This document shows positions 26,809-46,499 of a stretch of DNA of 64,000 bases, one piece after another. The stretch spans positions 62,001 through 126,000 of the forward strand of contig NZ_AHWA01000005.1 of NCBI RefSeq assembly GCF_000247645.1, read 5' to 3'. How positions within the stretch are numbered: position 1 is the first letter of the stretch; each line of letters begins with the position of its first letter. Source of the stretch: Salinibacterium sp. PAMC 21357 (GTDB lineage Bacteria; Actinomycetota; Actinomycetes; Actinomycetales; Microbacteriaceae). The notes under the pieces were generated by a model that had not been told where the DNA came from, ran no database searches, and saw only the letters and a program-made list of their open reading frames with translations. A program made the position numbers and the translations under genes.

Positions 26809-27468
26809 GTGAAGCTAGACCTCGACGACACGATAACTGCGGGCCAACGCCCCAGCGTGCAGCCGACTGAGCCCGACCTCGATGACACGATCATTATTCG
26901 GCTACGCAAGCAGCCCGATGTTGTGCAGCCATATTCGGGGCCGGCTCCGACGTTGGGCTTGACGTCAGGGGCCTCGGAGGCCTCGCCGGCGTCAGCGGCG
27001 GCCTCAACACCGGCGACCGCCGTGCAGCAGCCTCCTCGGGTTCTTCCGCGTGCCAACGTCAAGCAAGCCACGTCGGCACGTACCCCCGCGCCGCAATCCG
27101 CTGAAGCGCTAGCGCTCTATTACCGCGTGCAATTAGACGGCGCGTCTGGCGCACACAACCTTGAGCACCCGTGTGTCTTTGGGCGCGATCCCCGACCGCC
27201 CCGAATTGTTCGCGGAGTCGGGCCCCGACTCGTCGCGGTTCAATCGCCGACCCGGGAAGTCTCTGAGACTCACGTCGAAGTGCGCCAACTCGGTTCTTCA
27301 GTTATCGTGACAGATCTTCGTTCAACAAACGGTTCGATTGTTCAAGTTCCGGGCAATGCTGCGCAAAAACTTCGACAAGGTGAGTCAGTGGTCGTCTCCG
27401 CTGGCACGCTAGTAGATATTGGAGACGGAAACATCATTCGGATTCTGCCACGGCGGCGTCTGGAGTAA
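26809..27468 (+). CDS. FHA-domain protein
   Basis: A 219-residue cytoplasmic protein. Residues 1-100 are Pro/Ala-rich and disordered; they include two DLDDTI motifs near residues 4 and 24, each offering a Thr in acidic context that a Ser/Thr kinase could phosphorylate. The C-terminal forkhead-associated domain (about 115-215) shows the phosphothreonine-binding signature: FGRDP, SETHVEV, and DLRSTNGSIV. It opens a one-strand run with PP2C phosphatase and kinase genes, so it probably reads out their phosphorylation state. Confidence 0.88.
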   Translation: MKLDLDDTITAGQRPSVQPTEPDLDDTIIIRLRKQPDVVQPYSGPAPTLGLTSGASEASPASAAASTPATAVQQPPRVLPRANVKQATSARTPAPQSAEALALYYRVQLDGASGAHNLEHPCVFGRDPRPPRIVRGVGPRLVAVQSPTREVSETHVEVRQLGSSVIVTDLRSTNGSIVQVPGNAAQKLRQGESVVVSAGTLVDIGDGNIIRILPRRRLE

Positions 27469-27487
27469 CACGCGCAGGAAGGTAGCC

Positions 27488-28282
27488 GTGACCGAAATCG
27501 GCGGCAACAACTCTGGCCACACCATCGCCTTACCGGGGCGAGCAGATCAAAAATTTGGTTTCGCTTGGGCTGCAGGCACGCACACTGGCCATCGGCGCGC
27601 CGCAAACGAAGACAGCTATGTCGCTCGTTTACCGATGTTTGCCGTCGCTGACGGAATGGGTGGGCACTCCGCCGGTGATCTGGCCAGTGCTGCTGTTGTT
27701 GAGCGACTCGATGACGCCATCACGGGAGATTTCATGCCCGCTCGAGCGGTTGAGCGTGCGCTTGAGCGTGCGACGGACTACATCGGACTCATTGCCCAAG
27801 ACAGCGAACTGGGCGTCGGCACGACAGTCACCGGTGCCGTCATTACCGAACAACACGATTCGGCATGCTTCGCGGTGTTCAACGTGGGGGACAGTCGGGT
27901 CTATTCCTTCGAAAATGACACCCTCACTCAGATCACTCGCGATCACTCAGTAGTGCAAGATCTTGTGGATGCCGGGCTCATCTCTCGCGATGAAGCAGAC
28001 GATCATCCCGATGCAAATATCATCACGCGAGCGATCGGGTTTAACGCCGCTCCTTCTCCAGATTTTTGGATGGTGCCGATACACGTCGGACAACGACTGC
28101 TGATTTGCTCGGATGGTCTCACCCGCGAAGTGTCAGAATCGGAGCTATCGCGGCAGTTAGCTGAACGCCAGGAGCCTTCGGTCGCGGTTCAGGCGCTGAT
28201 AGATTCAGCGCTTGACAGCGGTGGCCGAGACAACATCACCGCGATCATCGTCGACGTGCTAGAAGTACCTACAGTGGACTAA
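27488..28282 (+). CDS. PP2C-family protein serine/threonine phosphatase
   Basis: A 264-residue metal-dependent phosphatase. Metal-site motifs are ANEDSYVA near residue 38, AVADGMGGHSAGD near 50-62, FNVGDSRVYSF near 131 and GGRDNITAIIVD near the end. There is no membrane span, so it is cytoplasmic, and it likely reverses phosphorylation by the kinase encoded next. The GTG at 27488 has a good AGGAAGG ribosome-binding site; a longer frame from 27419 runs inside the FHA gene. Confidence 0.93.
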   Translation: MTEIGGNNSGHTIALPGRADQKFGFAWAAGTHTGHRRAANEDSYVARLPMFAVADGMGGHSAGDLASAAVVERLDDAITGDFMPARAVERALERATDYIGLIAQDSELGVGTTVTGAVITEQHDSACFAVFNVGDSRVYSFENDTLTQITRDHSVVQDLVDAGLISRDEADDHPDANIITRAIGFNAAPSPDFWMVPIHVGQRLLICSDGLTREVSESELSRQLAERQEPSVAVQALIDSALDSGGRDNITAIIVDVLEVPTVD

Positions 28283-28312
28283 GCCGTAGGTCCTCCATAC
28301 TGGGGACATACG

Positions 28313-28401: not shown

Positions 28402-29829
28402 GTGGCTCGAAGACTGCCTTCAGATCCCCCCGCCCTCCCGGGGTTCTCGCATGTTCACGTTTTGGGCTCCGGTGGCTTCGCCGACGTTTTCCTTTATGAG
28501 CAGAACATGCCCCGACGCCAAGTTGCCGTCAAGGTCATGCTGAGTGAGATCGTCAACGACCAAGTACGTCAGATGTTTCAAGCCGAAGCAAACCTCATGG
28601 CCCAGCTCAGCTCGCATCCGTCGATTCTTACGGTCTATCAGGCTAGCGTGTCGTCAGACGGTCGCCCCTACCTGGTGATGGAGTTGTGTTCTTCGACACT
28701 CAGCCAGCGATATCGCGCCGAGCGCCTGCCCGTTCCCGAGGTGCTGCGCATTGCGATCAAGATTGGAAGTGCGATTGAAACTGCGCACCGATCGGGCGTA
28801 TTGCATCGCGATATTAAGCCGTCGAATATTCTGACCACTGCCTATGGCCACCCAGTACTCTCTGACTTTGGAATTGCGGCAACACTCAGCGAGTCCGAAA
28901 ATCTTGAAGCTGTCGGTATGTCCATCCCATGGTCAGCTCCCGAAGTGCTGATGGACGAAACTGCCGGCACAATCGAATCAGAACTCTGGTCATATGCCGC
29001 GACCGTGTATTCGCTCCTGGCCGGACGATCGCCATTCGAGGTGCCCGGGGAGTCGAACAAATCTACCGACTTAATTTCGCGCATCAATCGAGCCAAGCCG
29101 CGACCCACCGGGCGCAGCGACGTGCCTGAGAGCCTTGAACGAGCCCTAAACCGGGCAATGTCTCGCAAACCGGAATCCCGTCAGGGCAGTGTCTTAGAGC
29201 TGATTCATGAGCTTCAGGCAGTGGAGTCCGAACTTGGGTTGTCGCAGACTCCCATTGAAGTCGCGATGGATGATTGGGCGCTCGCGACCGTCGCAGAGCT
29301 CGAGGACCGCACTCGTGTTCGACCTGGCCAAACGGCGACAATCTCATCATCACAGCGTCGTAAACGTCGTCGCCCGGCAGCTATCGATGAAAGTTTCGGG
29401 TCGTTTGACAGCGAAGCCGCTGGTGACAAGATGTCGCGTCGAAAGACCGGCACGAGCCCGATACCGCGCGGCGGGGGAAAGCAAGCCCTTGCGTGGGTTG
29501 GCGTGATCGTGGCAGCACTTGTCGTTGTTCTAGGAGCGGCGGTGACGTTCACGCAATTGCAGGCGGGCGCGAGCGGTATCCCGACCGTCAGCGATATTAG
29601 CGCGAAGGTCTCGAGCGACGTCGTGGAGTTTTCGTGGCTCGATCCGGGGCTTGAAGCCGGCGACTCCTACCAGATCACGACCACCGATGGTCAGCCACCC
29701 TTGCAGCAACGTGAACCCAACTTCGTCGTCGACGCGGAATCAGGGGAGAACGTTTGCGTCGCGGTAACGGTGACCCGAGACGGCAAGTCAGGGCCGTCGA
29801 GCGCCCAGAAATGCGCAGTGCTGCCATGA
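28402..29829 (+). CDS. Membrane serine/threonine protein kinase with outside Fn3-like domain
   Basis: A 475-residue Hanks-type kinase. The Gly-rich loop is LGSGGFADV near residue 21, the ATP lysine is in QVAVKVML near 40, the catalytic loop is HRDIKPSNIL from residue 135 and the Mg loop is LSDFGIAA near 152. A basic linker is followed by one membrane span (about 363-388). The roughly 85-residue outside part looks like a fibronectin-III fold (VEFSWLDPG, YQITTTDG, NVCVAVTVTRDG) instead of the PASTA domains of PknB. This matches the Fn3 modules of the giant surface protein encoded next. The GTG at 28402 is preceded by GGGG. Confidence 0.93.
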   Translation: MARRLPSDPPALPGFSHVHVLGSGGFADVFLYEQNMPRRQVAVKVMLSEIVNDQVRQMFQAEANLMAQLSSHPSILTVYQASVSSDGRPYLVMELCSSTLSQRYRAERLPVPEVLRIAIKIGSAIETAHRSGVLHRDIKPSNILTTAYGHPVLSDFGIAATLSESENLEAVGMSIPWSAPEVLMDETAGTIESELWSYAATVYSLLAGRSPFEVPGESNKSTDLISRINRAKPRPTGRSDVPESLERALNRAMSRKPESRQGSVLELIHELQAVESELGLSQTPIEVAMDDWALATVAELEDRTRVRPGQTATISSSQRRKRRRPAAIDESFGSFDSEAAGDKMSRRKTGTSPIPRGGGKQALAWVGVIVAALVVVLGAAVTFTQLQAGASGIPTVSDISAKVSSDVVEFSWLDPGLEAGDSYQITTTDGQPPLQQREPNFVVDAESGENVCVAVTVTRDGKSGPSSAQKCAVLP

Positions 29830-29847: not shown

Positions 29848-32800
29848 GTGGCTGTGGTTAGGGGCTTTCGCAAGGCGCGTCGATCAACGGTTGTCGGCGC
29901 GGTGAGTATCTCGGCGATCGTCGCTCTAGTAGCGACGGTCGCAGTTGTATCGACGGGCTACACCGCCCAACATGTCGATCTTGCCGATGGCGCCGTGTGG
30001 GTCGCCAATAATCAACAGCAGGCCATCGGTCGCGCGAGCACTGAAGTGTACGAGATCAACTCGGTTGTCGACGCTCAAAGCGCCGACCTTGAAGTCGTGC
30101 AACATGGCGAGAATGTTTTGCTCTTCGATCGGGCCGAGAGTGCGATCGACGTCGTCGACCCAGCGCTGTCTGAAGTTTCGGAGAGCGTTGCGCTTCCGCC
30201 GAACCAGCCCGAAGTCTACTTTGCGGCCGATAACGTTGTCGTCCTGGAGCACGGTACAGGCGAAGTGTGGATTCGCTCGTACGACGATTTTCTCAATTTC
30301 GATGCGGAGTCTCCCGCATCATTGAGCCTCGGTGCTGATGCGATTGTGAGCGTCGATGAAAATGGCGTGATGTTCGCCTTTTCCCCCTCAACTAGTCAAC
30401 TGTTTCGGGTAAACGCCTCGATTTCTGACACCGCCGAATCAAGCGTCACTCTCGATCTCGATACCACGGCAGAGCTCAGCATTTCGTCCGTTGCCGGTGA
30501 GTGGGCCATTCTCGATTCGGACGCTCAACTGCTGTATCTGGATGGCAGAACTGTGGACCTGACCGGCCTTATCGATGGCGGAACTGGCCCGGTGCTGCAA
30601 GTGCCGTCGATTGACGGCGAACGATTTCTGGTCGGCTACAGCGAGGGTGTGCTGAGCGTTCCTCTCAGTGGTGCAGCTGCCGTTGGCCTCGCCACCGGCC
30701 AGTCCGGTATAGCGGCGCCGCCGTTGAGAATTGGCGACTGCGAATTCGCGGCCTGGACCAGTGGAGAAAACTGGCGACGATGCCCCACTGACGCCGGTAA
30801 TGGTGTGATGTTGCAATTGGCTGAGATGGAAGCCAATGCGCAACTCTCTTACTCCGTTAACGGCTCACGCGCGGTGCTGAACGACCGGCTCAGTGGTCGA
30901 ACGTGGGCTGTGCAGGATGATGGCGAACTCATCAACAACTGGAGCCAACTCATCACGACAGATGAAGAAGAACCAGAAGTTGAACAGAACCTTCTCAATC
31001 TGGAACCAGAAGTCGACAAAGTTCAGCAAGCTCCCGTCGCCGTCGATGACGTTTTTGGAGCACGACCCGGGCGAGCAACCGTGCTTCCCGTGCTATTAAA
31101 CGACTACGACCCCAACGGCGATGTGCTCGTCGTTGAGACGCTGCTGACGATCGATCCCGCTCTCGGTCGAATTGACCGCATCAACGAGCGTCAACAGATT
31201 CAGATCACTCTTGAACCGGGTGTCAGCGGCCAAGTGAGTTTCAGTTACACGGTAAGTGACGGCCGTGGAGGGACTGCTTCGGCCAATGTTGTCGTCGAGA
31301 TTCGTGCGGACTCTGAGAATTCGCCTCCCCAACAAATGCGCGCCACTAAATTCACGGTGCAAACCAGCGGTCGGATCTCCGACCAAGTTCTTGGCGACTG
31401 GGTCGACCCGACGGCGACCCTTTCTACCTGACAAACGCATCGGTGGCTTCACCAGACGCCGTGAGCTACCAACCGGGCGGCGACGTCGTGTTCTCAGATT
31501 CTGGGGCCGGCGGTGAGCTCAAGATTGTCACCCTCGTGGTCTCCGATGGCGATAGCGAAAGCTCGGGCAGCATTTCCGTCGCGGTCAAAGCTCCCGGCGA
31601 AGTACCGATTGAGGCAGATCCCTTCGTCGTGCTTGCGTACGCAGGCAAAGAAGTCACCGTTTCACCGCTGAGCCACGTTCGCGGAGGCAACGGCAACATC
31701 CGGCTCAATAGCGTTCCGGCAAAAACTGGTGCTCAGGTTGTACCGAGCTACGAGACGGGCACCTTCCGTTTCAAGAGCGATGAAATCCGCAGCCATAATC
31801 TCGAGTACGTCGTCACCGACGGCAATCTGACGTATACCGCGATCGTGCGCATCGACGTGGTGGCGCCCCCAGACGCGAACACGGCACCAATCACCGTGCC
31901 GAAAACGATCTTTGTACAGACTCTGCAGAATGAACGAATCGATGTCGCCGGCACTGATGTCGACCCCGCCGGCGGGGTACTGCTCGTCACAGAAATCATG
32001 AACCTGCCTGTGGGGTCTGGCGTACGTGCCGAAATCCTGGAACAGCGCCTCGTTCGTGTCAGCCTCGAAGATCCGCTGGATAACGGACCGGTGTCTTTCA
32101 ACTATCGAATAAGCAACGGACTTGCGGATGCCGTCGGCGTGATCACTGTTGTCGAAATCCCGGCGCCGTCGCGGTTTCAAGCGCCGATTGCCAATGACGA
32201 CTTAGTGACGGTTCGCGTTGGTCAAGCTGTCGACATCCGAGTGCTTCAGAATGACGAACACCCGGATGGTCTCGAACTCACCCTGGTGCCCAAGATGGCG
32301 CAAGACCTCCCCGACGATTCAGGTCTGCTTTTTGCCTCAGGTGAGGTGCTGCGTTACTTAGCCCCAGACCGCACCGGTAACTTCACGGCGGCGTATCAGG
32401 TTGCTGGCCCGGACGGCCAGTCGGCTACCGCCATTGTGCGAATTGCTGTGCGTGAACTTGACCCCGCGAGCAATAATCCTCCGGTACCGCCAACAGTGAC
32501 CGCGCGGGTTCTCGCCGGCGATACCGTGCGGGTCCAGATTCCCTTAACTGCTGCAGACCCCGATGGCGACTCGGTGCAACTGCTGGGTCAAGCGACCAAT
32601 CCGAGCAAGGGTGCGGTCTTAGAAGTTGATTCCAACACTTTCGTTTACCAGGCAGGGGAGTACTCCGCAGGCACGGACACCTTTAGCTATACCTTGATCG
32701 ATTCTTTGGGTGCGCGAGCGAATGGTGAAATCAACATCGGTATTAGTCCGCGCCTTGACGGTGCGCGAAATCCGGTCGCCATCATCGACGAAGTTACCGT

Positions 32801-35762
32801 TAAACCGGGAATAACCGTGTCCGTCCAGGTGCTCGCTAACGACTCTGACCCCGATGGAAGTCGGCTGTCTGTCGTTTCTGTCGAACCAAACGACGGCGTC
32901 ACCGTTGCGGAGATCGACGGCGACGTGGTGAATGTAACGCCGCCTGATATTCCCGGAGATTACGGAATTATCTATGTGATCGAGAACGAGACCGGTGGTT
33001 CGAGCCAGAACTTCATCCGGGTGACGGTCGATCCTGAGGCAAAACCGGCGTATCCAGTGGCCACCGACAGCGTATTGACGCTGTCTGACGTGCTTGACCG
33101 CAATCGAGTAACCGTTGATGTGCTTTCTGGGGTGTTCTTCGCCGACGGCGATCCCCGCACGCTCGCTCTGGCAATTTATGAGGGCTACGGTGACTTCGCT
33201 CGAGTTACCTCCGACAAGAAGATCGAGGTCTCGGTCGGGGACTCTAGCCAGATCATTCCCTTCCGCGTAACGAACCCTCTCGATCCCACAGCGTTCAGCT
33301 TCGCTTTCATCAAGGTTCCGGGCTACAACGACGCTCTGCCCCAGATTGACCGCCGTGCCAAGAAGCTGACGGTTAATAGCGAGAGCACGTTGGTAATTGA
33401 CCTCAACGACTACATCATCGCGGTTGGCGAGAACCCTGTTCGCCTCACCGACTCGAGCACGGTGCTCGCGACCCACAGCGATGGATCTAACCTCGTGCGA
33501 GACGAGGACACGCTGGTGTACACGTCGGCCGAGAAATATTTTGGACCGGCATCCATTTCATTCGAAGTTACCGATGGGGTCTCGGCGACGGACCCTGAAG
33601 GTCGAAGCGCGATTCTTGTCTTGCCGATAGACGTACTTCCGCGTGACAATCAGGCACCAGTATTCGGCGGGGCGGTTATCGATTTTGAACCTGGCCAAGA
33701 AAAGGAAATAGACCTCGTCAAGCTAACGAACTATCCGTATGAGGATGACCTCGAGGAGCTCGTTTACTCGATTCTGAGTCCGCTTCCTGAAGGATTCACC
33801 TATTCGCTCGCGGGCACGGTACTCAAGCTCAAGGCCAACAACAGCGCAGTGAAAGGTACGCGAACCGCAATCTCCTTGGGGGTCAAAGACGATCTCTCTG
33901 AAGGAAAGTCTGGGCGAATCGAGCTCAATGTCGTCGCGTCGACGCGACCACTTGCCAGCCCCGCGGCCGATAGCGTGATTGCGAAACGTGGACAAACCAC
34001 CGTCGTTGACGTGCTCGCAAACGACGCATCAACCAATCCCTTCCCTGGCTCGCCCTTGAGGGTCGTCGACATTCGCGGCCTTGGCGGAGGAGCAGTCCCT
34101 CCCGGCCTCACAATTGTTCCCAATAGCGACAACAGCAAGCTGACAGTGACAGTGTCCGCAGACGCTGTTCCCGGTGATGTGAATCTTCAATATCGTGTTG
34201 CGGACGGTACGAAGGATGAGTCCCGTTACGTCTGGGGCACAGTGGTCGTTTCCGTTCAGGACCGCCCCGACCCAGTCTCGAACCTTGGTCCGAGCGGATT
34301 CGGCGACAAGACCATCATGATGCGCTGGAACGCCGGGCCGTCAAATAACTCCCCGATCACGACCTACCGCGTAACCACGCGCGTGGGCACTGTTGTTGTA
34401 AATACGACTCAATGTGCTGGAACTTCCTGTGCGATTCCAACCACGGGAAACGGGCCAACCAACTCCGTCAAGGTGACCGTCGTCGCCGTCAACGCGATAG
34501 GTGAATCTGAGCCGGTGACGCTTGCCGATGCAGTGTGGTCGGACATCATCCCGGTTGCTCCGACGTCCCTGAGCGCTTCGCCTCTCGATCACGGTCTCAG
34601 GATCACGTGGAACGCGGTTCCGACGCCCGCTGGCGGTTCGCCCGTTGACCGCTATCGGGTTGTCGTCGGCGGTCTCGAGATTTCGCTTGGCCTCACCCAG
34701 TGTGATGCCGTTACATGCACCTGGGACACCCCGTCTACATGGGTGCTCGACAATGGTGTGGCGGTCGCCTACACGGTCAGCCCCCGAAATGCAGCGTACA
34801 CAGCGCTATCGGTGTGGAACACCAGTGAGCCGCGCAGCGCAATCCCCGCAGGACCACCGATTGCTTTGGCAGCGCCTGTCGCCAGCGTCGTCAACGACTC
34901 CACCGCCACACTCTCTTGGCCAGGAGCATTCAACGAGAACGGTCGGCCGGTAACGGCCTATACCGCTGCCGCGTACACCGGTACTGCGCCGACGTGTGCG
35001 GCTAACGGCTCGATTACCGGCCATGGTGCCGCGCTCTCGGCAGTCGGAAGCGGAACAACGGCGACATTCTCTGGATTGTCTCCGAACCGTACTTACACAA
35101 TGCTTGTGTTCGCTGACAACGGCCAGGGCTGCACCACCTCCCCAACGGTCATCGCGCACACTCCGCCCGGAGTAATTACCGCGCTCAATACTGCTGGTCC
35201 TGTGGCGAACGGCGTTCGGTTCGACTTCACCGTCAACGGTGGAATGATGGGAAGCGATCCGCTCACGAGCGATTACACGCTCTACTACCGCTTGAGCGGC
35301 GGTAGCGTGCCAGGAACAATCTTTGGTCCGGTGGCTCTGGGCTCCTTCTTGACTGCAGATGGCGGACAGCAGTACGGGCAAAACATTTCCGCTCAGGTGC
35401 TCGCGTGCCGCAGTTACGGATCAGCGCCCATCTGCCAGTCCAACTGGTCTGCGCCGTTCCCGCTAGGTGTTCCGGTTAATCCGTCGGTAGGCAACCTCAC
35501 CTTTACGTCCGATGGTGACCTGCTTAATCAGAGCGGAACGTTCGAATGGCTCGACTGGCCAGCCGGGGCCTATGAATCCGTGCGTTATCGCTGTGGTGGC
35601 GTTACGCTCGACCCTTGGCAGACAGCCGACACCAGCACCCCCGGTGGCAGCTGCCACGCTGATGTTGCTCTGCTGGTCGCTAACCCGACTCTCGTAGTGC
35701 GCGTGACCGCTAACGGCGGACAAATCTATGACAGAACGTACAACGGATATGACTATGACTAG
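29848..35762 (+). pseudogene. Giant membrane-anchored Ig-like/Fn3 surface protein, split by a one-base frameshift
   Basis: Two abutting frames, 29848-31431 (527 residues) and 31443-35762 (1439 residues), look like one gene of about 1971 residues. The first ends in GDWVDP then a false TATLST tail. The other frame reads DGDPFYLTNASVASPD just before its apparent start, and restoring one base after 31409 (CCC to CCCC) yields the DPDGD motif seen in the other repeats. Order: short cytoplasmic basic N-terminus, one membrane span (about 18-38), a propeller-like region (about 45-370), several Ig/cadherin-like repeats with DPDGD and VLxND motifs, then three Fn3-like domains near the C-terminus. There is no LPXTG or C-terminal anchor. 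It lies between the kinase and moxR as in PFNA-type clusters. The defect may be real or a sequence error. Confidence 0.85.
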
Positions 35763-35771: not shown

Positions 35772-36743
35772 ATGACCATGACTCCCGATGAAGCCGCATG
35801 GTTCGCGGAAAGCTTCAACCGACTCGTCACTAACGTCGAGCAAATTTTGCTCGGCAAGACCTTTGTTGTTCGTCTCGGTTTTACTGCTCTTCTGAGCGAA
35901 GGCCACCTTCTGCTCGAGGACTACCCCGGCACCGGCAAGACTTCGTTCGCTCGTGCGATCGCGCAAAGCGTTTCGGGAACCACCAACCGCATTCAGTTCA
36001 CTCCCGACCTGCTTCCTGGCGACATCACGGGCGTGAGCATTTTTGATCAGCGTGACAACGAGTTCGAATTTCACCCGGGACCGATCTTCGCCAACATTGT
36101 TTTGGCAGATGAGATTAACCGTGCAAGCCCCAAAACTCAGGCTGCGTTGCTCGAAGTTATGGAAGAAGGACAAGTCACTGTTGACGGGATCTCCCATCCG
36201 GTGGGGGCGCCCTTCATGGTGATCGCGACACAGAATCCGATCGAGCAGGCCGGCACCTACCGACTTCCTGAAGCACAACTTGACCGGTTTCTCATGAAGG
36301 CCTCGATCGGCTATCCCGACCGCGCCTCCACGCTTCGCATTCTCGATGGTGCCGGTGTTGCCGCCCATTCCGTGAAGATCGACCCTGTTGTTAGCGCGGA
36401 GCTTGTGGTGGAGATGGCACAGCTCGCCCGTACAGTTCACGTTGACCCCACTATTAACGACTACGTGAGTCGCCTCATCGAAGCAACCCGCAGCGCTACT
36501 GAAGTTCGGCTAGGGGTCAGCGTTCGTGGAGCTCTTGCTCTTATGCGGGCGGCGAAGACCCTTGCCGCATCCAACGGTCGACACTATGTCGTTCCGGATG
36601 ACGTGAAAGCCCTCGCCGAGCCTGTACTCGCGCACCGTCTAGTTATTGATGCTGAAGCCGAGTTCGAAGGCGTTACGGCCTCGAGCGTAATCGCCCAAAT
36701 TTTGATCGAGAATCCTCCGCCCACAGAGCGGCAAGCCGTGTGA
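35772..36743 (+). CDS. MoxR-family AAA+ ATPase
   Basis: A 323-residue ATPase of the MoxR class, thought to act as a chaperone that matures or assembles partner proteins. Walker A is EDYPGTGKTSFA near residue 55-66, Walker B is IVLADEINRA near 110, sensor 1 is VIATQNPIEQAGTY near 150 and the lid is C-terminal. The ATG at 35772 has an AGAGG site. The stop overlaps a GTG at 36740 that most likely starts the DUF58 gene; MoxR-DUF58-transglutaminase is a standard trio. Confidence 0.94.
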   Translation: MTMTPDEAAWFAESFNRLVTNVEQILLGKTFVVRLGFTALLSEGHLLLEDYPGTGKTSFARAIAQSVSGTTNRIQFTPDLLPGDITGVSIFDQRDNEFEFHPGPIFANIVLADEINRASPKTQAALLEVMEEGQVTVDGISHPVGAPFMVIATQNPIEQAGTYRLPEAQLDRFLMKASIGYPDRASTLRILDGAGVAAHSVKIDPVVSAELVVEMAQLARTVHVDPTINDYVSRLIEATRSATEVRLGVSVRGALALMRAAKTLAASNGRHYVVPDDVKALAEPVLAHRLVIDAEAEFEGVTASSVIAQILIENPPPTERQAV

Positions 36744-38172: not shown

Positions 38173-40460
38173 CGCGCCAAACCACCCCGACGTTCGCCGG
38201 TGTCAGCGGAGGATTGCTGTGGATATCACTCGCGCTCGCGTCAGCTGCGCTCTGGCCGATTTATCGAAGCCCAGCATTGATCGTGCTTGTCATCGTGAGC
38301 GTCGTAGCCGGAACGCTAGTTGCCGTCGTCGCTCTCTGGCGACGGTGGTCAGTGGGGTCTACGGCCTTGGCCACTGTTGTCATGTTCCTTATCATCGGTG
38401 TCCCGCTCGCCGTCCCGTCAGAGACGCAGTACACGGTGCTTCCGACGTTTGCAGGCCTTGTCGATCTGGTTCTTGGCGTCGCTCTGGGATGGAAGCAATT
38501 ACTCACAATTTCGCTCCCCGTTGGCAGCTATCAGGCTCTGTTGGTTCCCGCGCTAGTTCTCGTGCTGGGGGCGACTGTGGTTTCGCTCAGTATCGCGTTT
38601 CGCACCAAGGTTCAAGAACTCTCGGTCATTCCACCCATCGTGGTCTTTCTCACCGCAGTAGCGTTCGGTCCAACCTACCCAGATCGTTCGGTGACTTTAT
38701 CCGTCACCCTGCTCATTGTCGTAGCACTCGCCATGGTGTGGTTTCGTTGGCGACGTCGACGCGACACAGTGAATGCTCTTGAGGCTGCGGTAGACAATGC
38801 CGGGGTTGCTCGTCGCCGGCGAGAGTTTGGTTTTGCGGGCGCTCGTACCGTGATCAGCGCGGTTGTTATTCTCACGATCGCCGCTGGAGCCGCTGTCAGT
38901 ATCGCAAACGCCCTACCCCCGCAAAGTGATCGCTCAGTTCTACGCACGGCCATTGTCGAGCCTTTCGATCCTCAGAACTATGTAAGTCCGCTCTCGGGAT
39001 TTAGGCGATATTGGCAGCCGAGCACCGCGAATTCTGTGCTGTTCGAGGTTGCGGGCGTGCCTTTAGGGACGCGAGTGCGTTTGGCAACACTCGATAGCTA
39101 TGACGGCGTTGTTTATTCGGTCGGAAGCGGTCGCGTGACGAGTGCGTCTGGTGCCTTTGCGCGAGTACCCGCGCGTTTCGACCAATCGGAGGTCGACGGA
39201 AACCCAGTCGCGATGACCATCACAATCGTCAACTACACCGGAGTGTGGCTGCCGACGGTCGGACTATTCGAAGAAATCAGCTTCGACGGTGCGCGGGCTG
39301 CAGACTTGCGCGACACTTTTTACTACAACGACGTCTCGGGCACCGCTGCCGTCACGGAGCTTCTCGAAGGCGGTGACAGCTACACGTACGAAGGCAAACT
39401 TCCAATTCAGCCGAGTGCCGAGGAGATATCTTCGCTCACTCCCGGCACGGCAGAAGTGCCTCCGATCCGAGTATCACCGGACGAACTCACTGAGAAGCTC
39501 GATGAGTATGTTCGCGGGATTTCGCAACCGGGAGAACGCCTAGCGGCGATGCTCAGCGGCCTAGCCGCCGACGGCTACATCAGTCACGGTGTTGGTGTTG
39601 ATGAGCCAGCGAGCAGGTCAGGGCACGCATCGGACCGTGTAGCCGAGCTATTCACCGAACCTCGAATGATTGGCGACGGCGAACAGTACGCGGTCGCGGC
39701 ATCAATCATGGCAAATGAGTTGGGATTTCCCGCCAGAGTCGTGTTGGGATTCGTTACCTCTGATCAGCAGATTCGTGGTGATGATGTCACGGCGTGGATC
39801 GAAGTGAACACGTCGGAGTACGGCTGGGTGACTCTTGACCCGAACCCACCCCTGCGGGAAATTCCGGAAGAAGATCCGGATGACACCGCGCAAGTCGCTC
39901 GCCCGCCCACGATTGTGCAACCGCCCGAAATCGAATCAGATACTGTCAACAGGCAGTCAACTCCCGATAGTGAACAAGCGCTTCAACCAGGCGTCGATCC
40001 CATTCTGCAAATAGTATTGGCGGTTCTTCGCACCGTTGGCTGGTCGTTGTTGGGGCTTCTCGTGATCGCCGCACCATTCTTATTGATCATTGCGGCGAAA
40101 GTGCGTCGCCGCCTTCTGCGCCGTCGTGCTAAATCCACGCTGGATCAAATCAGCGGCGGCTGGCAGGAGTTTGAAGACTCCATACTTGACCACGGCTTCT
40201 CGCCACCGCTGTCAGGAACCCGGACGGAGGTCGCCGCGGTTGTGCAAGCCCCTGCGGCCCATGAACTTGCGGTGAAAGCCGACCGCGCAATTTTTTCCGG
40301 AGCTGATCCACAATCAGGCGAGGTCGATGCGTTCTGGACGAACGTTACCGAACTCGAGAATCAGCTTCACAATGGACTGTCGCGATGGGCGCGGTTCAAG
40401 ACCAAAATATCGCTGCGATCGCTCGGTGGATATAGTGTCACAAGTCTGTTTAAGCGATAG
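38169..40460 (+). CDS. Transglutaminase-like membrane protein lacking catalytic Cys and His
   Basis: A 763-residue protein with about six membrane spans in the first 215 residues, another near residue 235 and one near 615-640 after the outside domain. The transglutaminase-like core lies at about residues 450-565. The usual catalytic Cys of the GxCEQxA context is Gly504 ([12 protein letters not shown]), and the usual His of HAWxEV is Thr541 (DVTAWIEV). Only the DPNPP Asp region and fold motifs ([18 protein letters not shown]) remain. It is therefore likely a non-enzymatic scaffold or binding domain. It follows DUF58 with an overlapping start and precedes the zinc-ribbon FHA gene. Confidence 0.88.
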
Positions 40461-40470
40461 AGGACTACCC

Positions 40471-43341
40471 GTGATTTGTTCTTTCTGCGCGACGCAATTG
40501 CCCGCCGATGCGGTTTACTGTGCCGAATGTGGGCGACCTGCTATGTCTCGTCGCGCCCGCCGCACCGCCGATGCTGCACCCAAAAAACCTCAATCTGCAC
40601 GAGCGAAACGTGCCGCTAGGAAGAGTCAGGCCGCTGACACCGTCGGGCCACGACGTCGACGCAAGAACGAGGAGAGTAAGCAGACCATCCCGGTTCTTGC
40701 CTCACCCTCAGAGCCGATCATCGACACAGTGACGGCGGTTCAGCTGCACGAGATCGTTACCGGGGCTGACGAAACTGAGGCAGCGTTTGCCGACACGGAT
40801 GTTAGCGCTCACGCGGAAAAGTCATCGATTTCAGAAGGCGAAGCTCGCCATCGCGCTCAACATGAGCACACAGCGTCAGCGCGCGAATTGCGGTTGGGCG
40901 AGCCGCTGATGCTCTCATCGACGGATCCGCAGCCTGCCGAAGCTGAGGAGTACGCGCAAGCTGTTGACGGGTCAACGAGCGCTGGCACCAGCGACGTGGC
41001 GCGTCTATCGGGGCCAGAACTCCCGAGTGCGGGTGCGAGCGCGCAAGTTTTTCAGCAAGACGAAGACGCATCTTATGACGAGGTTCTTCCATTCGATGAG
41101 GACGGCCCGTACGACGAAGTAGCGAACCCTGCTGCAGTGAACTTCGATGTTCAGCTGGCCGGAGTCGCTGCGCTGGGGAAAGTGGACCTTACTCCACAGG
41201 CCAGCTGGCGCATTCTGCCGGCGCCCGATCCGCAGCAAATTGAGCGGACAGCTGAGGCAGGTGAACCGCTAGTGGCTCGTGAGCCCGCGACCGCAGTTGA
41301 GCAGACGGCAGAAGATTTGGCGGTTCCGGAGGAGTCGCCGATGGCAGACTACTTCGAGGTTGGCGAGCACCGCTTGCCGGCAGAGAGTGTGACAGCCGCC
41401 GACGACTCAGCGATTGCTGAGCCCCCTGTGTCGATAGCTGACTTGGTAGCCCCGGAACCGCGCGAACCAGTGATTGCCCCTGACGATACCCCCGCAGCTT
41501 TCGCTGCTGGAGGGACCAAGGAAAACGAGGAAGTCGAAGCAGTCGAGCCCGTCGTTGACGATTTCGATCACGTCGAGCTCGCCCATCTCGCGGCACCTCA
41601 GAACGCCGACCTTACGGATGTTGCAGATGTTGCAGAGATCGCGGGCGTAGCGGAGACAGAAGATTTGGTCGACGGCGTCGATTCTGCCGACGACGAATCG
41701 GCGCACTTTGAGTCTCCGGAAACCGACGCTGTCGGAAGTCTGGACGCCTCTGCTGCGTTGACTGGAGTCGATGCTGATTCTGACCCTGACAGCGATTTTG
41801 GCGGCGCAGGTCCTGCTGTCGTGCCGGAACCAGAACCAGAACGAGAACCGGAACCGGAACCGGAACCGGAACCAGAACCGGAGCCGGAGCCGGAGCCGGA
41901 GCCAGAACCAGAGCCGGAGCCAGAACCAGAGCTCGAAACCGAACTAACTAAGGCCCCTGAGCCGGAGCCTCTTGTCGAGCCTTCGCCTCTACCGCGATCA
42001 CCGTTTGAACCAGATCTGAGCAAAGTCGGGCGGCCTGACGCGGCCGCTGGAATCTCCGGACCCACTGGGTCGAAGACCGTGCGCCCGCTGGGAGACGAGG
42101 AGCTCTTCTCGACTGCGGACCGGCTGCGAGCATCCGCGTTCGCGCCTGTTGCATCTGAGCGTGTCGACGATCAGCCTGCGCCGATAACTGCGGAACGCGG
42201 CGAGGACTCCGATATAGCGTCGATCAGCGGAACGGCACCTCGAGTGTCGAAAGTATTTGGAGAGCAGCCGGGAGCTGTGGCCCCCGAAAGTAATCCCGTT
42301 TCGGGAGCGACCGAATCAGCTCAGCCGCAGCGTTCGAGTTTTAGCGATTCGTCGGCAGCACCGGTCGCGACCGACGCGATGTGCGCTCAGTGCGGTGCTT
42401 CGTTGTCAGAATCAGATATCTTTTGTGGCACTTGCGGGTTTGTGAAGCACGGAGTTGGGCCGAGCTCTCGAGCAGCCAAGGCGCCCATGTCCGACGCATT
42501 TCCGAAGGAAATTGCGATGGCACATTCCCCTGATATCGCGCCTGCTGCGCCTGAGACGCTCACTGACGCTGTAGAGAATGTGGTTTCTGTCGAACCAGCG
42601 GAACCTTCCACCCTCGCGCAACCGCTGACGACGGAAACCTCGGCAGCTTCGGAAGAAGTGGACCAACCGCCAGTTGCGACGCCGACAGCAGCCATGGACT
42701 CGGCGTCGGAGATAAATTCGAGTGAACTTGTCGAGCAGGCCGCTGATGCGCACCCGGTTCACGAAGCTGCATTCGAACAGCTCAGTGCTGTGCCGCGTCT
42801 AACAGATGCTCAAGAGCCCTCGATGAAGGATGCAGTTTTGCCTGAGGCTACTGTCGGCGATTTAGGATCTTCCACTGGCGGGTCTGTTCTTGCCCCGCCG
42901 CCTATGTCTCACCATCGCGTTGAGCTGCCGATCGCTCCACCGACGCCTCTCTCCTCGCTCGCTTCGGGGGAGGAGGACATCGAAGACACCAGAATTGTCG
43001 AACGTGGCATCTCAGGAACACGCTATGTCCTTCAGTTCAGTACTGGCGACAGCGTGATCGTGACTGGCACCGGCCTCGTCGGACGAAACCCGATACCGGA
43101 GCCGTCCGAGAAGTTCGACATTGTGGTTCCGATAACGGATCCCAGTAAATCTGTATCCAAGACTCATCTTGAGTTCGGACAGCTAGCGGGAGCCTTTTGG
43201 ATTAGCGACCGATACTCCGGTAACGGAACCGTCGTGCGTGAGCCAGGCGGAGAACCGAAACGTTGTGAGGCCGGAAAGCGTTATCGGGTAATGCGCGGCA
43301 CGCGGGTTGAGATTGGTGAGCAGTTCTTCATCGTCAGCTAA
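40471..43341 (+). CDS. Zinc-ribbon protein with Glu-Pro repeat and C-terminal FHA domain
   Basis: A 956-residue, mostly disordered acidic protein. It begins with a zinc ribbon (CSFC...CAEC, residues 3-22), then a basic patch with RRARR and RRRRK. A long acidic Glu/Ala/Pro-rich region includes a Glu-Pro dipeptide tract. A second zinc ribbon (CAQC...CGTC, near 638-655) follows, and the final 110 residues form an FHA domain (LVGRNP, SKTHLEF, SGNGTVV). There is no membrane span. The GTG at 40471 is chosen because AGAGGAC precedes it and the zinc ribbon starts at once. The FHA suggests it docks on phosphothreonines made by the cluster kinase. It sits directly before the FtsK-like gene. Confidence 0.85.
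41827..41934 (+). repeat. Glu-Pro dipeptide tandem repeat
   Basis: About 108 bases of GAR-CCN hexamers, alternating GAACCG/GAGCCG/GAACCA/GAGCCA, encode about 18 Glu-Pro units in the zinc-ribbon FHA protein. The tract forms a stiff, extended acidic rod, similar in composition to the TonB and PspC linkers. It is in frame and may vary in length between strains. Confidence 0.9.
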
Positions 43342-43442: not shown

Positions 43443-46400
43443 GTGACTGATACCAGAACCACTGACCCGCGAATCACGCTGCCAGCGGCGCTTCAGCCTG
43501 CCGCGCCTTTTCGGTTTCCTGTCGTCGCGGCGACAGTGCCTGTCGTCGCCTCTGTCGCGATCTGGCTGATCACCGGATCAATGTTTGCGCTAATATTCGC
43601 GGCTTTGGGACCGCTCGCTGCTATTGGCACGTATATCGATTCGCGGGTCTCTGCACGCAAGGTCTTGCGTGCAGAGACAACGCGATTCGCACGTGATCTC
43701 TCGTCGACGCAGTCAGCGATTGAGGCATATCACCGTCGCGAAAGTGGGGATCTAGCTGAGCTTGCTCCACCGGCAATTGTGTTGGTGGATGAGGTTAAGA
43801 CTGATTCGTCGCGGTGGATGCGGGAGCCGCGTGAAGTTCTGCCAGTGCATCTCGGGTACGGCACAGTTCGCAGCAACCTCGTGATCGACGGGGGAGGAGC
43901 ACGCGATCATGTGGATTCAACGACAGCGCAGCACTATCAACGTCTTACCGATCTGGCCGCTAATCTGCAGGATGCTCCGATCGCGGTGAATGCGAGACTG
44001 GGAATCGCAATCTTCGGCAACGAGCTGCTCTCTCTCGCTTTGGCGCGTGCTCTGGCGATTCAACTCGCACGAAGTCTGTCCCCGAAAACAAGCTGGCTGA
44101 GACCTCGCGGCGTATTCAGCGCTGAGCTCTGGAGCTCGCGCTTGCCTCACCGTGTGTTGCGAACGGATGGCGGCGTTCAGGAACCCACAATTGGTCACGA
44201 GCTTGCCAGCGTGCACTGGGGTCAGTTGGGAGATGATGCACCGAGCGTTTCGATCAGCGTTGTCTCGCTTGAGCAACAAGTGCCGAGTGGGCACCGGATC
44301 ATAATTCACGCTGGCGGTGATTCTATTGCGGTTGTTGGTCACCCAGACAAGCATCAACGTCGAGAGTTTGCGCCATCATTCCTCGGCAGGGAACAAGCCT
44401 TAGTCTGGGCGCTCGCTGCTCACGAAATCGCCTCGCGGGATGGACTGGCCTCGAGTGATGAGTCAGTGCCAGACTCCCTCGCATTCGAGGAATTGCTGTC
44501 ACAACTCGAGTTCAGCCCCGAGGGTACAGTCCGCCGCGCACATTCACTTGAAAGTCGACCAGCAGTGGGGTCGAATGGGCGGCTAGTCGTCGACCTTGTC
44601 GCACACGGGCCCCACGCCATCGTTGGCGGCACGACAGGAAGTGGTAAGAGCGAACTGCTCATCTCGTGGGTGCTTGCGATGGCCGCAGAGGCCTCTCCAG
44701 ACGACGTGACGTTTCTCCTCATCGATTTCAAAGGCGGTTCCGCGTTCGCGCACTTGGCCCAACTACCGCACACTGTGGGAATTATCACCGACCTAGACGA
44801 GGCCGCAGCGAGCCGGGCGTTTTCTAGTCTCCGAGCGGAGCTCCAACACCGGGAGCGATCGCTTGCTCGTGCAAATGCGCGAGATATTTCTGAGGTTGAC
44901 GCGCTCCCACGGCTCGTGATTGTTGTCGACGAGTTTGCGGCAATGATGGGTGACTACCCTGAACTTCACGCGCTGTTCAGCGACATTGCCGCGCGTGGCC
45001 GCTCGTTAGGCGTACACCTCATCCTCTGCACTCAACGACCGTCGGGAGTCGTTCGCGATTCCCTACTGGCAAACGCGGATTTACGGATATCGCTGCGGGT
45101 TAATAACGGGGCAGATAGTTCCGCTGTGATCGGCAGTGATCGGGCCGCCGAGTTACCCGCACGCATCAAAGGTCGCGCGTGGGTCGCGCACGGGTCGTCC
45201 TCAGCCGAACTCGTGCAGTTCGCGCTGGCCACTACGCACGATGTGCTTTCGGTGGCCGAACGATGGCCAGCCGATTACAGTCCTCGGCGCCCCTGGTGCG
45301 AACCTCTCGCTGAATATATACCGCTCGCTACCATCGCAGAACTTGGCGCGGCGAGGGGGAACACCGCTGCTGCATCTCCGCCTCGCGCTCGACAATCGGC
45401 ACTGCCACAGAGTGCACGAGACGCCCGCGATGCTGTCGGCACGATTTCCGTCTACTTTGGCCTAACAGACTTGCCGGATGAGCAGCGGCAGGGTGTCGCC
45501 GAGTGGGCTCCAGAGGAGGATGGCAACCTTCTCATCCTGGGTTCCCCGGGAAGCGGAAAGAGCACGACGATTGCGACGATCGTCGCTGCAGCCACCGCTG
45601 ATCCACCCGCAGGCGCTAACGCGCCCGCGAATGGATCGGAGCCCACAGCCGATCCTGCGGGCGTAGGGAGTAACATCACAGTGCTTGCGGGTGGGCTTGA
45701 ACCGGCGGGATTCTGGGACACGGTGAGTGCGTTGCACGCTCAACTCGATCGCGCAATCTCGCAGCGAGACCATCCTCGTGGGATAGTGCTGGCGATCGAT
45801 GATCTTGACGCAGTGATTTCGCGCTTTGACGATGAGTACCGCAGTACTGTGCTCGATCGGCTTGCTCGACTGCTGCGAGAAGGACCATCGCAGCGCATCT
45901 GGGTGGTGGCAAGTGCACAACGGGTGACGCCCGCACTGCAATCATTGGCCCAGCTGATTCCCCACGTGTTGCGACTTCGATTCGCCAACAGGCAGGAGTT
46001 TGTGCTCTCCGGGGGCGTACCAGCGGAATACACCGCATCACTTCCGCCCGGAGGAGGCAAATGGAAAGGGGCCCGCGTGCAGGTCGCGGTGAGCGCCCAC
46101 TACCCTCCAGCGCCGCAATCGGCTGCGGTGGCGACGATTCAGCGTACCGAGAAGCTCGTCGTCGCGAGCAGCAGACCCGCTGCGACCACCGCCGCGCTCA
46201 CGGCAGCTGGCTGGCACGTTCGCATGCTCGACGGCGCGCCAGGGAGCGAACGAGAGTTGCTCATCGCGGATAACAGTCGGCCGATTGCTCTCATCGGTTC
46301 AATCGACGAGTGGCAATCCCGTTGGGGCGCGCTGGGCCTTCTGAGAACGCACTCCACCGTTCTCCTCGATGGGTGCAGTCTGAGCGACTACCGGCAACTC

Positions 46401-46499
46401 GCCCGAACGCGGGAACTGCCGCCCCCACTCACCGCCGGCGCCGGACATTACTGGAAGATTAGCGAAAGTGGGGCTGAGAGGGTGCGGCTGCCCCTCTAG
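43443..46499 (+). CDS. EssC/EccC-like double FtsK/SpoIIIE ATPase
   Basis: A 1018-residue protein with two adjacent membrane spans near residues 25-68 and two FtsK/SpoIIIE-type ATPase domains. Domain 1 has Walker A GGTTGSGKSEL near residue 396 and Walker B LVIVVDEFAAM near 495. Domain 2 has Walker A LGSPGSGKSTT near 699 and Walker B IVLAIDDLDAV near 782. This layout is that of the EssC/EccC motors of type VII secretion, not of the DNA translocase FtsK (no gamma domain, no long N-terminal membrane region). No FHA domain is fused, but FHA proteins are encoded at both ends of the locus. No WXG100 substrate gene is visible nearby. Confidence 0.9.
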   Translation: MTDTRTTDPRITLPAALQPAAPFRFPVVAATVPVVASVAIWLITGSMFALIFAALGPLAAIGTYIDSRVSARKVLRAETTRFARDLSSTQSAIEAYHRRESGDLAELAPPAIVLVDEVKTDSSRWMREPREVLPVHLGYGTVRSNLVIDGGGARDHVDSTTAQHYQRLTDLAANLQDAPIAVNARLGIAIFGNELLSLALARALAIQLARSLSPKTSWLRPRGVFSAELWSSRLPHRVLRTDGGVQEPTIGHELASVHWGQLGDDAPSVSISVVSLEQQVPSGHRIIIHAGGDSIAVVGHPDKHQRREFAPSFLGREQALVWALAAHEIASRDGLASSDESVPDSLAFEELLSQLEFSPEGTVRRAHSLESRPAVGSNGRLVVDLVAHGPHAIVGGTTGSGKSELLISWVLAMAAEASPDDVTFLLIDFKGGSAFAHLAQLPHTVGIITDLDEAAASRAFSSLRAELQHRERSLARANARDISEVDALPRLVIVVDEFAAMMGDYPELHALFSDIAARGRSLGVHLILCTQRPSGVVRDSLLANADLRISLRVNNGADSSAVIGSDRAAELPARIKGRAWVAHGSSSAELVQFALATTHDVLSVAERWPADYSPRRPWCEPLAEYIPLATIAELGAARGNTAAASPPRARQSALPQSARDARDAVGTISVYFGLTDLPDEQRQGVAEWAPEEDGNLLILGSPGSGKSTTIATIVAAATADPPAGANAPANGSEPTADPAGVGSNITVLAGGLEPAGFWDTVSALHAQLDRAISQRDHPRGIVLAIDDLDAVISRFDDEYRSTVLDRLARLLREGPSQRIWVVASAQRVTPALQSLAQLIPHVLRLRFANRQEFVLSGGVPAEYTASLPPGGGKWKGARVQVAVSAHYPPAPQSAAVATIQRTEKLVVASSRPAATTAALTAAGWHVRMLDGAPGSERELLIADNSRPIALIGSIDEWQSRWGALGLLRTHSTVLLDGCSLSDYRQLARTRELPPPLTAGAGHYWKISESGAERVRLPL

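Follow-up and report, generated by a model that had tools for sequence, protein, structure and literature searches.

The question raised by this locus is whether nine neighbouring genes encode one machine or whether separable units have come to share one stretch of chromosome. In the window (the whole 64,000-nucleotide stretch of Salinibacterium sp. PAMC 21357 DNA that was analysed), positions 26809-46499, about 20 kb, hold nine same-strand genes for FHA1, PP2C, a kinase, an Ig/Fn3 protein, MoxR, DUF58, a transglutaminase-like protein (TGM), a zinc-ribbon FHA protein (ZnFHA) and an EccC/EssC-type motor (Table 1). The original prediction, made from the letters alone, had named these nine families on one strand in this order, and Pfam matches for the families recovered them at nearly the same positions. 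It had also described the genes as having little or no space between them, which holds for most junctions but not for the 119 bases between PP2C and kinase or the 101 bases before the motor. Two starts deserve care: that of PP2C is uncertain (TTG 27419 or later), and that of ZnFHA is most likely GTG 40471 rather than 40327, a start that would overlap the TGM gene by 134 bases. Neither promoter-like patterns (3 found, 5.6 expected from shuffles) nor terminator-like patterns (15 found, 17.0 expected) are in excess between 26700 and 46690.

Table 1. Features of the nine-gene locus, numbered from the first letter of the window.
Feature	Position	Strand	Remarks
FHA1	26809..27468	+	cytosolic FHA protein, 219 aa; Pfam FHA 26 bits, cut-off 20.7
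FHA1, two N-terminal DLDDT-I motifs	26818-26838, 26875-26898	+	
FHA1, FHA core	from about 27178	+	
PP2C Ser/Thr phosphatase	27419..28282	+	Pfam PP2C_2 39.2 bits; NCBIfam Stp1 209 bits, cut-off 230
Hanks-type kinase	28402..29829	+	Pfam Pkinase 138.5 bits; one TM, residues 363-381 (hydropathy)
Kinase, juxtamembrane ELEDRTRVR	29296-29322	+	
Ig/Fn3 protein, N-terminal part	29848..31431	+	membrane anchor, beta-propeller, first Ig repeat; Big_9
Ig/Fn3 protein, C-terminal part, different frame	31443..35762	+	Big_9 (6 stretches) then fn3 (2 stretches), Pfam
MoxR AAA+ ATPase	35772..36743	+	Pfam AAA_3 208 bits, AAA_lid_2 89.3 bits
DUF58 protein	36741..38172	+	frame-broken near 36.88 kb, ORF 36931-38172 left; Pfam DUF58 44.5 bits
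TGM, transglutaminase-like	38169..40460	+	Pfam Transglut_core 49.3 bits
ZnFHA	40471..43341	+	Pfam Zn_Ribbon_1 (31.5 bits) and FHA (26 bits)
ZnFHA, two zinc ribbons	40477-40530, 42382-42435	+	
ZnFHA, 12-residue motif	42970-43005	+	
ZnFHA, C-terminal FHA	from 43081	+	
Short T7SS-type motor	43443..46499	+	1018 aa; Pfam FtsK_SpoIIIE 127.3 bits

Of 26 same-genus genomes, 22 show the nine genes in this order and four are interrupted by contig ends, a conservation that excludes a chance arrangement. Because a phylum-wide search with the Ig N-terminus found matches in 17 of 296 genomes, the survey was set at the level of order and family. Among 31 named class A loci (41 picked, minus four of class C, L212, L214, L217 and L220, and another six truncated at contig ends, L197, L199, L205, L206, L210 and L211), 24 have all nine genes and one (L188) has no ZnFHA match; the remaining six, from Leifsonia and Curtobacterium, keep the other eight genes with only the motor absent, an absence scored at the slot only, with the DNA behind ZnFHA inspected in four (L191, L192, L201, L207).

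The closest relative is the PFNA operon of Bifidobacterium, for which the published description, in the sections that deal with the cluster, lists pkb2, fn3, aaa-atp, duf58 and tgm, joined in some species by prpC, a hypothetical gene and fha, and reports for B. longum co-transcription and phosphorylation of MoxR by the kinase (PMC8430577). The locus repeats the five core genes in identical order on one strand together with PP2C and FHA genes, so that its predicted identity as an expanded PFNA-type cluster, here with ZnFHA and a motor, proved sound. It differs in that FHA1 and PP2C precede the kinase while ZnFHA and the motor follow TGM, whereas prpC and fha come after tgm in some Bifidobacterium, and in that those same sections name no FtsK gene for the published cluster. 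A locus from family f4 (L258; f4 is Bifidobacteriaceae by guess) reads kinase-Ig-MoxR-DUF58-TGM-PP2C-FHA with no motor. Searches of a PMC library turned up no account of the form with a motor.

Across the family, 70 of 120 genomes have the short motor: 47 with an Ig gene upstream (45 at 10.8-24.9 kb on the same strand, two more with a diverged Ig and the whole core), 22 without any core gene alongside and one cut by a contig end. DNA was inspected for 27 of the 47 linked motors, with the core lying between PP2C and ZnFHA, and for all 22 unlinked ones, where 8.5-17 kb of upstream DNA holds none of kinase-Ig-MoxR-DUF58-TGM. What surrounds the unlinked motors is FHA1-PP2C-ZnFHA (3 loci), PP2C-ZnFHA (5), PP2C (9), FHA1-PP2C (1) or nothing of the cluster (4), and in genome G441 the run ALDH-PP2C-ZnFHA-motor-alanine dehydrogenase-SBP (flanks named by eye) matches the window's slot minus core and FHA1. 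Scoring 29 family-linked loci gene by gene revealed all nine genes in 20; four (L101, L104, L127, L167) miss only slots past the end of the examined DNA, L147 and L148 miss FHA1 (past that end) and ZnFHA, L128 and L174 miss ZnFHA, and L176 misses three genes.

Linkage of motor and core is thus common, not obligatory, given 22 of 70 motors without a core alongside and 6 of 31 named loci without a motor. On the motor tree it takes 7 changes to explain the core label, at least 4 of them on starred branches, against a mean of 22.3 for shuffles that overstate significance because the tree rows are related. Nor does unlinked mean lost, since G028 carries core (class A with FHA1, L259) and motor at separate sites, and the two halves may cooperate even so. 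Of the 22 unlinked genomes, 16 have an Ig match (E<=1e-60) at another site, G028 being the one inspected; the other six have no Ig match anywhere at that threshold, one of them (G441) having a weaker match at 2.4e-24. In another 23 family genomes Ig is matched at E<=1e-60 (unassigned class) and no short motor at E<=1e-150. The proposal of one machine is borne out in part, by the joining of nine genes in the genus and the linkage of most family motors to Ig, but not as a fixed rule. A lack of conservation of motor and ZnFHA with the kinase, Fn3 and MoxR genes, which the original prediction had said would count against it, is absent from the genus and present in part across the family.

Because the halves can be parted, we see in the locus a pair of cooperating modules, not a single fixed machine, with a PFNA-type core (kinase, Ig/Fn3 protein, MoxR, DUF58, TGM) nested in an outer module (FHA1 and PP2C on one side, ZnFHA and the short motor on the other), the two sharing a signal and not an obligatory output, a tentative reading that we find slightly easier to doubt than to believe. 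The signalling and coupling steps that we infer would begin at the membrane kinase, which would sense envelope conditions through its outer domain and phosphorylate the threonine of an acidic-T-[R/I/V]-[V/I] motif, found both in the kinase and in the FHA1 and ZnFHA tails. These phosphothreonine marks would be bound by the FHA domains and reset by PP2C, much as in the GarA/OdhI switch, in which, according to the portion of PMC5448819 concerned with it, an FHA protein is phosphorylated on a threonine in its unstructured N-terminal extension. GarA acts on central metabolism, whereas here two putatively phosphorylated FHA proteins are encoded in a surface-protein/motor operon. ZnFHA, whose gene directly precedes that of the motor, would replace the FHA domains that EssC has at its own N-terminus and would couple the signal to the motor, which would move a putative substrate, while the core would separately place and mature the anchored propeller-Ig-Fn3 surface protein with MoxR-DUF58-TGM.

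Residue conservation is consistent with this wiring. The kinase keeps VAxK and DFG in 81 of 81 rows and HRDxKP in 74 of 74 distinct ones, and the FHA signature GR..SxxH..NG is kept in 69 of 70 distinct relatives of FHA1 (the single miss is a 55-aa piece at a region edge) and in 84 of 84 of ZnFHA; as judged from sequence, these are the signature residues of an active Hanks kinase/pThr-FHA pair. The acidic motif recurs in the kinase juxtamembrane segment (71/74, shuffle mean 14.8) and in the tails of FHA1 (63/69, 14.6) and ZnFHA (53/84, 7.4), a pattern chosen after the sequences were seen and counted in kinases of such clusters. Over whole proteins it is enriched 4.4x in FHA1 and 2.9x in ZnFHA, compared with 0.5-1.6x in the remaining seven, among them the kinase at 1.6x over its full length. 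In core-less loci the FHA1 motif occurs in 0 of 4 against 76 of 86 elsewhere, but core-less FHA1 has a different N-terminus, and the ZnFHA motif in 3 of 8 against 55 of 77, a weak difference (Fisher p = 0.10). The shared motif fits what phosphothreonine wiring would need, such that the predicted signalling through two FHA proteins gains credence, and it offers a cheap and specific way to test biochemically whether a T7SS-type motor is under phospho-control. ZnFHA also has a long, acidic, low-complexity middle; the outer tail of the kinase looks Fn3-like by eye.

The same motif, common to the kinase and the outer-module FHA proteins, argues against motor and PP2C being an unrelated unit that shares a slot or promoter with the PFNA operon without functional coupling, as do the placing of the core between PP2C and ZnFHA and the class B clusters, which join similar gene sets to a second kind of motor. 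We consider such a unit unlikely, although it would account for the nine unlinked loci with motor and PP2C and no other cluster gene, the four with the motor alone, and G028, where PP2C lies beside the motor and FHA1 beside the core.

The central claim of the original prediction, that the T7SS-like motor drives the Ig/Fn3 protein's export or assembly, fared worse, and we regard it as quite unlikely. Tight linkage in the genus, the 47 family motors linked to Ig, the retention of both halves in G028 and the class B clusters of other Micrococcales, where core genes accompany a long EssC-like motor, speak for it. They have to be weighed against the 22 motors without a core, six of which lie in genomes lacking an Ig match at E<=1e-60 (G441 weaker, as above), against the six named loci with Ig and seven other genes and no motor at the slot, and against the 23 genomes with Ig and no short motor. 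Moreover, the Ig protein is predicted to carry its own N-terminal membrane helix: the AlphaFold2 model of its first 388 residues (mean pLDDT 87.6) has a helix at 16-34, in line with hydropathy, followed by all-beta structure whose top Foldseek match is the archaeal S-layer YVTN propeller 1l0q. TGM has 8 N-terminal hydrophobic segments and one near its C-terminus by hydropathy.

As to the motor itself, its prediction as a type VII-like ATPase gained support: tandem FtsK/SpoIIIE ATPase domains of EccC/EssC type follow an N-terminal hydrophobic hairpin from 43515, with Walker A and B of ATPase 1 at 44625-44651 and 44913-44933, Walker A of ATPase 2 at 45540-45566, and a third domain degenerate by eye. 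The EssC profile scores 267.6 bits (curated cut-off 778.4) and EccCa 213.7 bits, likewise below cut-off; PDB sequence matches add to this evidence, and the best PDB fold match of the model (pLDDT 84.1, pTM 0.63) is EccC 4nh0 over 915 columns. The 1018-aa protein has no Pfam FHA match, its sequence opening with the hairpin, and none to the C-terminal FtsK gamma (DNA-binding) domain among 18 Pfam families, a further ATPase domain standing there instead; in this it differs from the FtsK DNA translocase, present as a separate 913-aa protein in G005, G012 and G017. A PHROGs search gave FtsK/SpoIIIE-like, terminase and unknown families only.

Those three genomes, each with the short motor, one weak FtsK match (that 913-aa protein, read as DNA translocase) and exactly one WXG100 gene, would suit a reduced type VII system secreting an unlinked WXG100 protein beside groEL, as would the WXG100 match (E<=1e-12) in 67 of 70 short-motor genomes against 37 of 50 without (Fisher p = 0.0008, relatedness and genome size ignored). 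We judge it distinctly improbable: in G475, G546 and G522 a WXG100 gene persists, and the sole FtsK match of each, a weak one of 835-931 aa, is read as DNA translocase, G525, G576 and G578 have the short motor with no WXG100 at E<=1e-12, and the window's contig (C2) has no WXG100, the genome's five matches being on C1 and C3. An ESX-like locus on C1 (L068) has two WXG100 genes and a 1322-aa motor by HMM; a subtilase and an EccD-like protein were noted there by eye.

A role of the motor as DNA translocase or within a defence system is extremely improbable, since superfamily matches to FtsK, MADS8, SspH and HerA models, and a kinase (mad6) in MADS too, are set against best profile and fold matches to T7SS EssC/EccC, the hairpin with tandem ATPase domains, and PADLOC kinase matches that are many and generic (33 families). 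As a defence system the locus was rejected, PADLOC having matched only the kinase, PP2C (once, weakly) and the HerA/FtsK superfamily.

The EccC/EssC-type motor invites comparison with known type VII systems. The motor, with tandem ATPases, is of the EccC type of actinobacterial T7SSa (ESX), but no locus protein matches EccB/EccD/EccE/MycP (Pfam/NCBIfam, E<=0.01) and the locus has no WXG100. In T7SSb of Firmicutes, as set out in the relevant part of PMC9600267, EssC/YukB has two N-terminal FHA domains, EssB/YukC is a pseudokinase, and YukC is a binding partner of the FHA region of YukB; the likeness lies in the same kind of motor partnered by a kinase-fold TM protein and FHA domains. The same part of that source describes T7SSb kinase motifs as partly missing and the FHA pThr signature as not conserved, whereas both are kept here; FHA is on a separate protein, and EssA, EssB, EsaA, EsaB (same threshold) and WXG100 have no match in the locus. 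The locus would offer an active-kinase counterpart of the EssB pseudokinase. A broader claim, which we hold doubtful, is that Actinomycetota may have a third T7SS-derived secretion machine in which an active kinase-FHA-phosphatase switch replaces the Firmicutes pseudokinase; its full form would be class B of several Micrococcales families (WXG100, kinase, MoxR, DUF58, TGM, propeller-Ig protein and a long motor whose N-terminus is ubiquitin-like and FHA) and the window would hold its trimmed, WXG100-free form, with FHA carried by a separate protein. Natural variants (core beside motor, core apart, core without motor, motor without core) supply strains for studying each half.

Two genes of the locus are broken in this assembly. 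Ig/Fn3 is split here into a pair of ORFs in different frames, whereas each of the 22 same-genus loci with all nine genes has it as a single ORF of 1954-1985 aa, and the remaining DUF58 ORF, interrupted near its N-terminus, encodes 413 aa where relatives mostly have 449-483 aa; comparison with relatives' frames located the missing N-terminal segment just upstream in another frame. Because the kinase and Ig ORFs are likewise split in a further PFNA-like cluster of the same genome (contig C5, L100), assembly indels are, on the sequence, probably at least as likely an explanation as decay.

All nine genes listed by the original prediction are present on one strand of the window at 26809-46499, as read from Pfam searches and ORFs, in the order FHA1, PP2C, kinase, Ig/Fn3 (Ig), MoxR, DUF58, transglutaminase-like (TGM), zinc-ribbon FHA (ZnFHA) and a short EccC/EssC-type motor, with the ZnFHA start most likely at 40471. 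The locus is preceded by an aldehyde dehydrogenase gene and followed by genes for a solute-binding protein and an asparaginase. Frame changes in the window's assembly break the Ig ORF at about 31.42 kb and the DUF58 ORF at about 36.88 kb; the 22 same-genus relatives with a complete locus encode Ig in one uninterrupted ORF (1954-1985 aa), and in most of them DUF58 is likewise one ORF (449-483 aa). Two frame breaks inside one operon, together with the broken cluster L100 of the same genome (Table), hint at assembly indel errors. A Glu-Pro repeat run lies at window positions 41845-41886, in the middle of ZnFHA, the ORF length of which is very variable among relatives (137 to >1000 aa).

Within the genus, linkage was complete wherever it could be read. 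The short motor was found in all 26 same-genus relatives (as just a contig-end piece in G002 and G015), and the complete ordered nine-gene set in 22 of the 26, a contig end falling within the locus in the other four (G002, G004, G015 and G018). Scanning named records, of which we took the best 80 of at least 587 loci, revealed the nine-gene set in Salinibacterium, Rhodoglobus, Herbiconiux, Schumannella, Cryobacterium, Agromyces, Naasia, Microcella and Aurantimicrobium. Among these best 80, 31 named loci of the window's type (class A) covered every slot, with nine genes in 24, no ZnFHA match in one (L188, Planctomonas) and the motor absent from its slot in six. These six, from Leifsonia (L191, L192) and Curtobacterium (L201, L203, L207, L252), retain the other eight genes; no FtsK ORF followed ZnFHA in the four whose downstream DNA was read, and in Leifsonia an alanine dehydrogenase gene, named by eye, comes after ZnFHA in the motor's place.

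We then surveyed 120 Microbacteriaceae genomes, each at least 95% complete, finding the short motor in 70 (E ≤ 1e-150) and the Ig N-terminus in 87 (E ≤ 1e-60). By coordinates, Ig lay 10.8-24.9 kb upstream of the motor on the same strand in 45 of the 70, and two more genomes (G507, G565) carry a diverged Ig plus the whole core (kinase-Ig-MoxR-DUF58-TGM) near the motor, bringing linked motors to 47 of 70; in one further genome (G512) the contig runs out at the motor locus. Gene content was read in 27 of the 47 linked loci and, over 8.5-17 kb upstream of the motor, in all 22 unlinked ones, where no kinase, Ig, MoxR, DUF58 or TGM gene was seen in that stretch. What is left at the unlinked loci is FHA1-PP2C-ZnFHA-motor (3), PP2C-ZnFHA-motor (5), PP2C-motor (9), FHA1-PP2C-motor (1) or the motor alone (4). 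In G441, for example, PP2C-ZnFHA-motor sits between an aldehyde dehydrogenase gene and genes for alanine dehydrogenase/solute-binding protein (flanks named by eye). At 3 kb downstream of one of these lone motors (L152) lies a MoxR-DUF58 pair of a different kind.

An Ig match (E ≤ 1e-60) occurs elsewhere in the genome for 16 of the 22 unlinked motors, with none genome-wide at that threshold for six (G441, which has a weaker one, G520, G548, G550, G562 and G573); conversely, in 23 genomes of the family Ig was matched and the short motor was not, under the cut-offs applied. Among the 16, G028 is the one whose Ig surroundings were read: its motor site (L045, PP2C with motor) lies more than 200 kb from its core site L259 on the same contig, so that the cluster was split there with both halves retained. 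A core parted from its motor is thus not always a core lost. Mapped on a 68-row motor tree, presence of the core next to the motor takes 7 changes versus a shuffled mean of 22.3, at least four of them on well supported branches. Since the core lies between PP2C and ZnFHA in the linked loci read, repeated removal of the block seems likelier, from gene order, than repeated insertion at one point. The original prediction had read the locus as a single machine in which a type VII-like motor exports or assembles the Ig protein under phosphothreonine control; full linkage in the genus and 47 of 70 motors in the family speak for this unity, and 22 of 70 motors without an adjacent core and 6 of 31 named loci without a motor speak against it. 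The locus looks more like two modules than one fixed machine.

Coordinates of loci and genes discussed in the text
Feature	Location	Content	Remarks
Lone WXG100 gene	L079:10473-10760	adjoins groEL	named by eye
Core site L259 of G028	G028:C3:12000-31500	FHA1-kinase-Ig-MoxR-DUF58-TGM together	window's class
PFNA-like cluster L099	G000:C3:131700-144900	no motor in stretch fetched	window's own genome, class C
PFNA-like cluster L100	G000:C5:88000-103300	no motor in stretch fetched; kinase and Ig ORFs split	window's own genome, class C
ESX-like locus L068	G000:C1:205000-218200	two WXG100 genes and a 1322-aa EccC-like motor	window's genome, HMM
Class B examples L067, L070, L087, L088, L092, L097, L129, L131, L135 and similar		long EssC-like motor by Ig, MoxR, DUF58, TGM	

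Profiles and predicted fold place the motor with those of secretion systems. Its top profiles are EssC and EccC, at scores under their curated cut-offs, and its predicted structure (mean pLDDT 84.1, pTM 0.63) aligned across 915 columns with 4nh0, an EccC ATPase, giving TM-scores of 0.47 and 0.55. Walker A and B are conserved in alignments of ATPase 1, and Walker A of ATPase 2 is intact in some but not every row. The Ig protein's predicted make-up is that of an anchored surface protein, with an N-terminal membrane helix followed by a beta-propeller (pLDDT ≥90 in 307 of 388 residues). For this part, the fold search ranked a propeller from an archaeal surface layer first, with a modest TM-score (0.45). 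On established knowledge of signal anchors, a surface protein anchored in this way can cross the membrane unaided by a dedicated motor.

WXG100 proteins were considered as candidate substrates of the motor. No WXG100 gene was matched on the window's contig, and family-wide 104 of 120 genomes had a match at E ≤ 1e-12, comprising 67 of the 70 that carry the short motor and 37 of the 50 that lack it. The lone groEL-adjacent gene is likely the one matched in many genomes. Three same-genus genomes (G005, G012, G017) have one WXG100 gene and the short motor as their sole T7-type motor; in G475, G546 and G522 a WXG100 gene is kept and the sole FtsK match is a weak one of 835-931 aa, and G525, G576 and G578 have the short motor and no WXG100 match at E ≤ 1e-12.

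The phosphothreonine part of the reading found support in conserved residues. Among class A kinases, all 81 rows retain VAxK and DFG and all 74 distinct proteins retain HRDxKP, and the GR..SxxH..NG signature is kept in 69 of 70 FHA1 (the exception is a 55-aa piece) and all 84 ZnFHA proteins. T7SSb counterparts instead have (PMC9600267) a pseudokinase and FHA domains without phospho-binding residues. Counting an acidic-T-[R/I/V/K/M]-[I/V/F/L/R/M] motif, a pattern defined post hoc from data already seen, we found it in 71 of 74 kinases, within the juxtamembrane segment (mean of 14.8 in shuffles), in 63 of 69 FHA1 proteins, within the tail (14.6), and in 53 of 84 ZnFHA proteins, within the 65 residues ahead of the FHA domain (7.4). 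Over whole proteins or ends, enrichment was 4.4-fold for FHA1 and 2.9-fold for ZnFHA versus a range of 0.5- to 1.6-fold across the remaining seven (whole kinase, 1.6-fold). GarA undergoes phosphorylation within an unstructured tail of similar kind (PMC5448819), as may the motif-bearing tails here. The FHA1 motif was present in 0 of 4 proteins without a core beside the motor versus 76 of 86 with one, the core-less FHA1 having a different N-terminus; for ZnFHA the difference was weak (3 of 8 versus 55 of 77). Kinases of classes B and C (36 in total) showed TR[V/I/L]R in 22 of 30 inspected. The DUF58 N-terminal segment bears a T-[R/K]-[I/V]-[V/I] string in 40 of 58, mostly NARTRIVG and with the acidic lead absent; this string resembles the kinase and ZnFHA motifs and precedes a membrane segment in many class A proteins (e.g., L036:10521 onward).

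Elsewhere in the order, class B clusters join core genes to a motor of another kind, longer at about 1450-1750 aa per ORF, with an N-terminus resembling, by eye, a ubiquitin-like stretch plus FHA domain. Part of them have kinase, PP2C and FHA genes, and part have WXG100 after, with a match within about 4 kb downstream in 8 of 14 and weaker ones in L070, L090 and L091; class B may represent a T7SSb-like system of actinobacteria in which the kinase is active. Class C clusters have no motor in the stretch fetched, and two lie in the window's genome (Table). Across 149 genomes sampled from the order, 142 had a motor of one of these types, with EccC counted among them (E ≤ 1e-35), and 78 had the Ig N-terminus (E ≤ 1e-10), which phylum-wide was matched in 17 of 296 genomes. 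One motor-less locus, L258, reads kinase-Ig-MoxR-DUF58-TGM-PP2C-FHA, the order published for Bifidobacterium longum (PMC8430577); the family of L258, f4, is at a guess Bifidobacteriaceae. Searches of a PMC library holding few subscription-journal papers listed no account of a PFNA-type cluster that carries an FtsK/EccC motor. The ESX-like locus of the window's genome also encodes, by eye, a subtilase, an EccD-like membrane protein and a zinc-ribbon RDD FHA protein.
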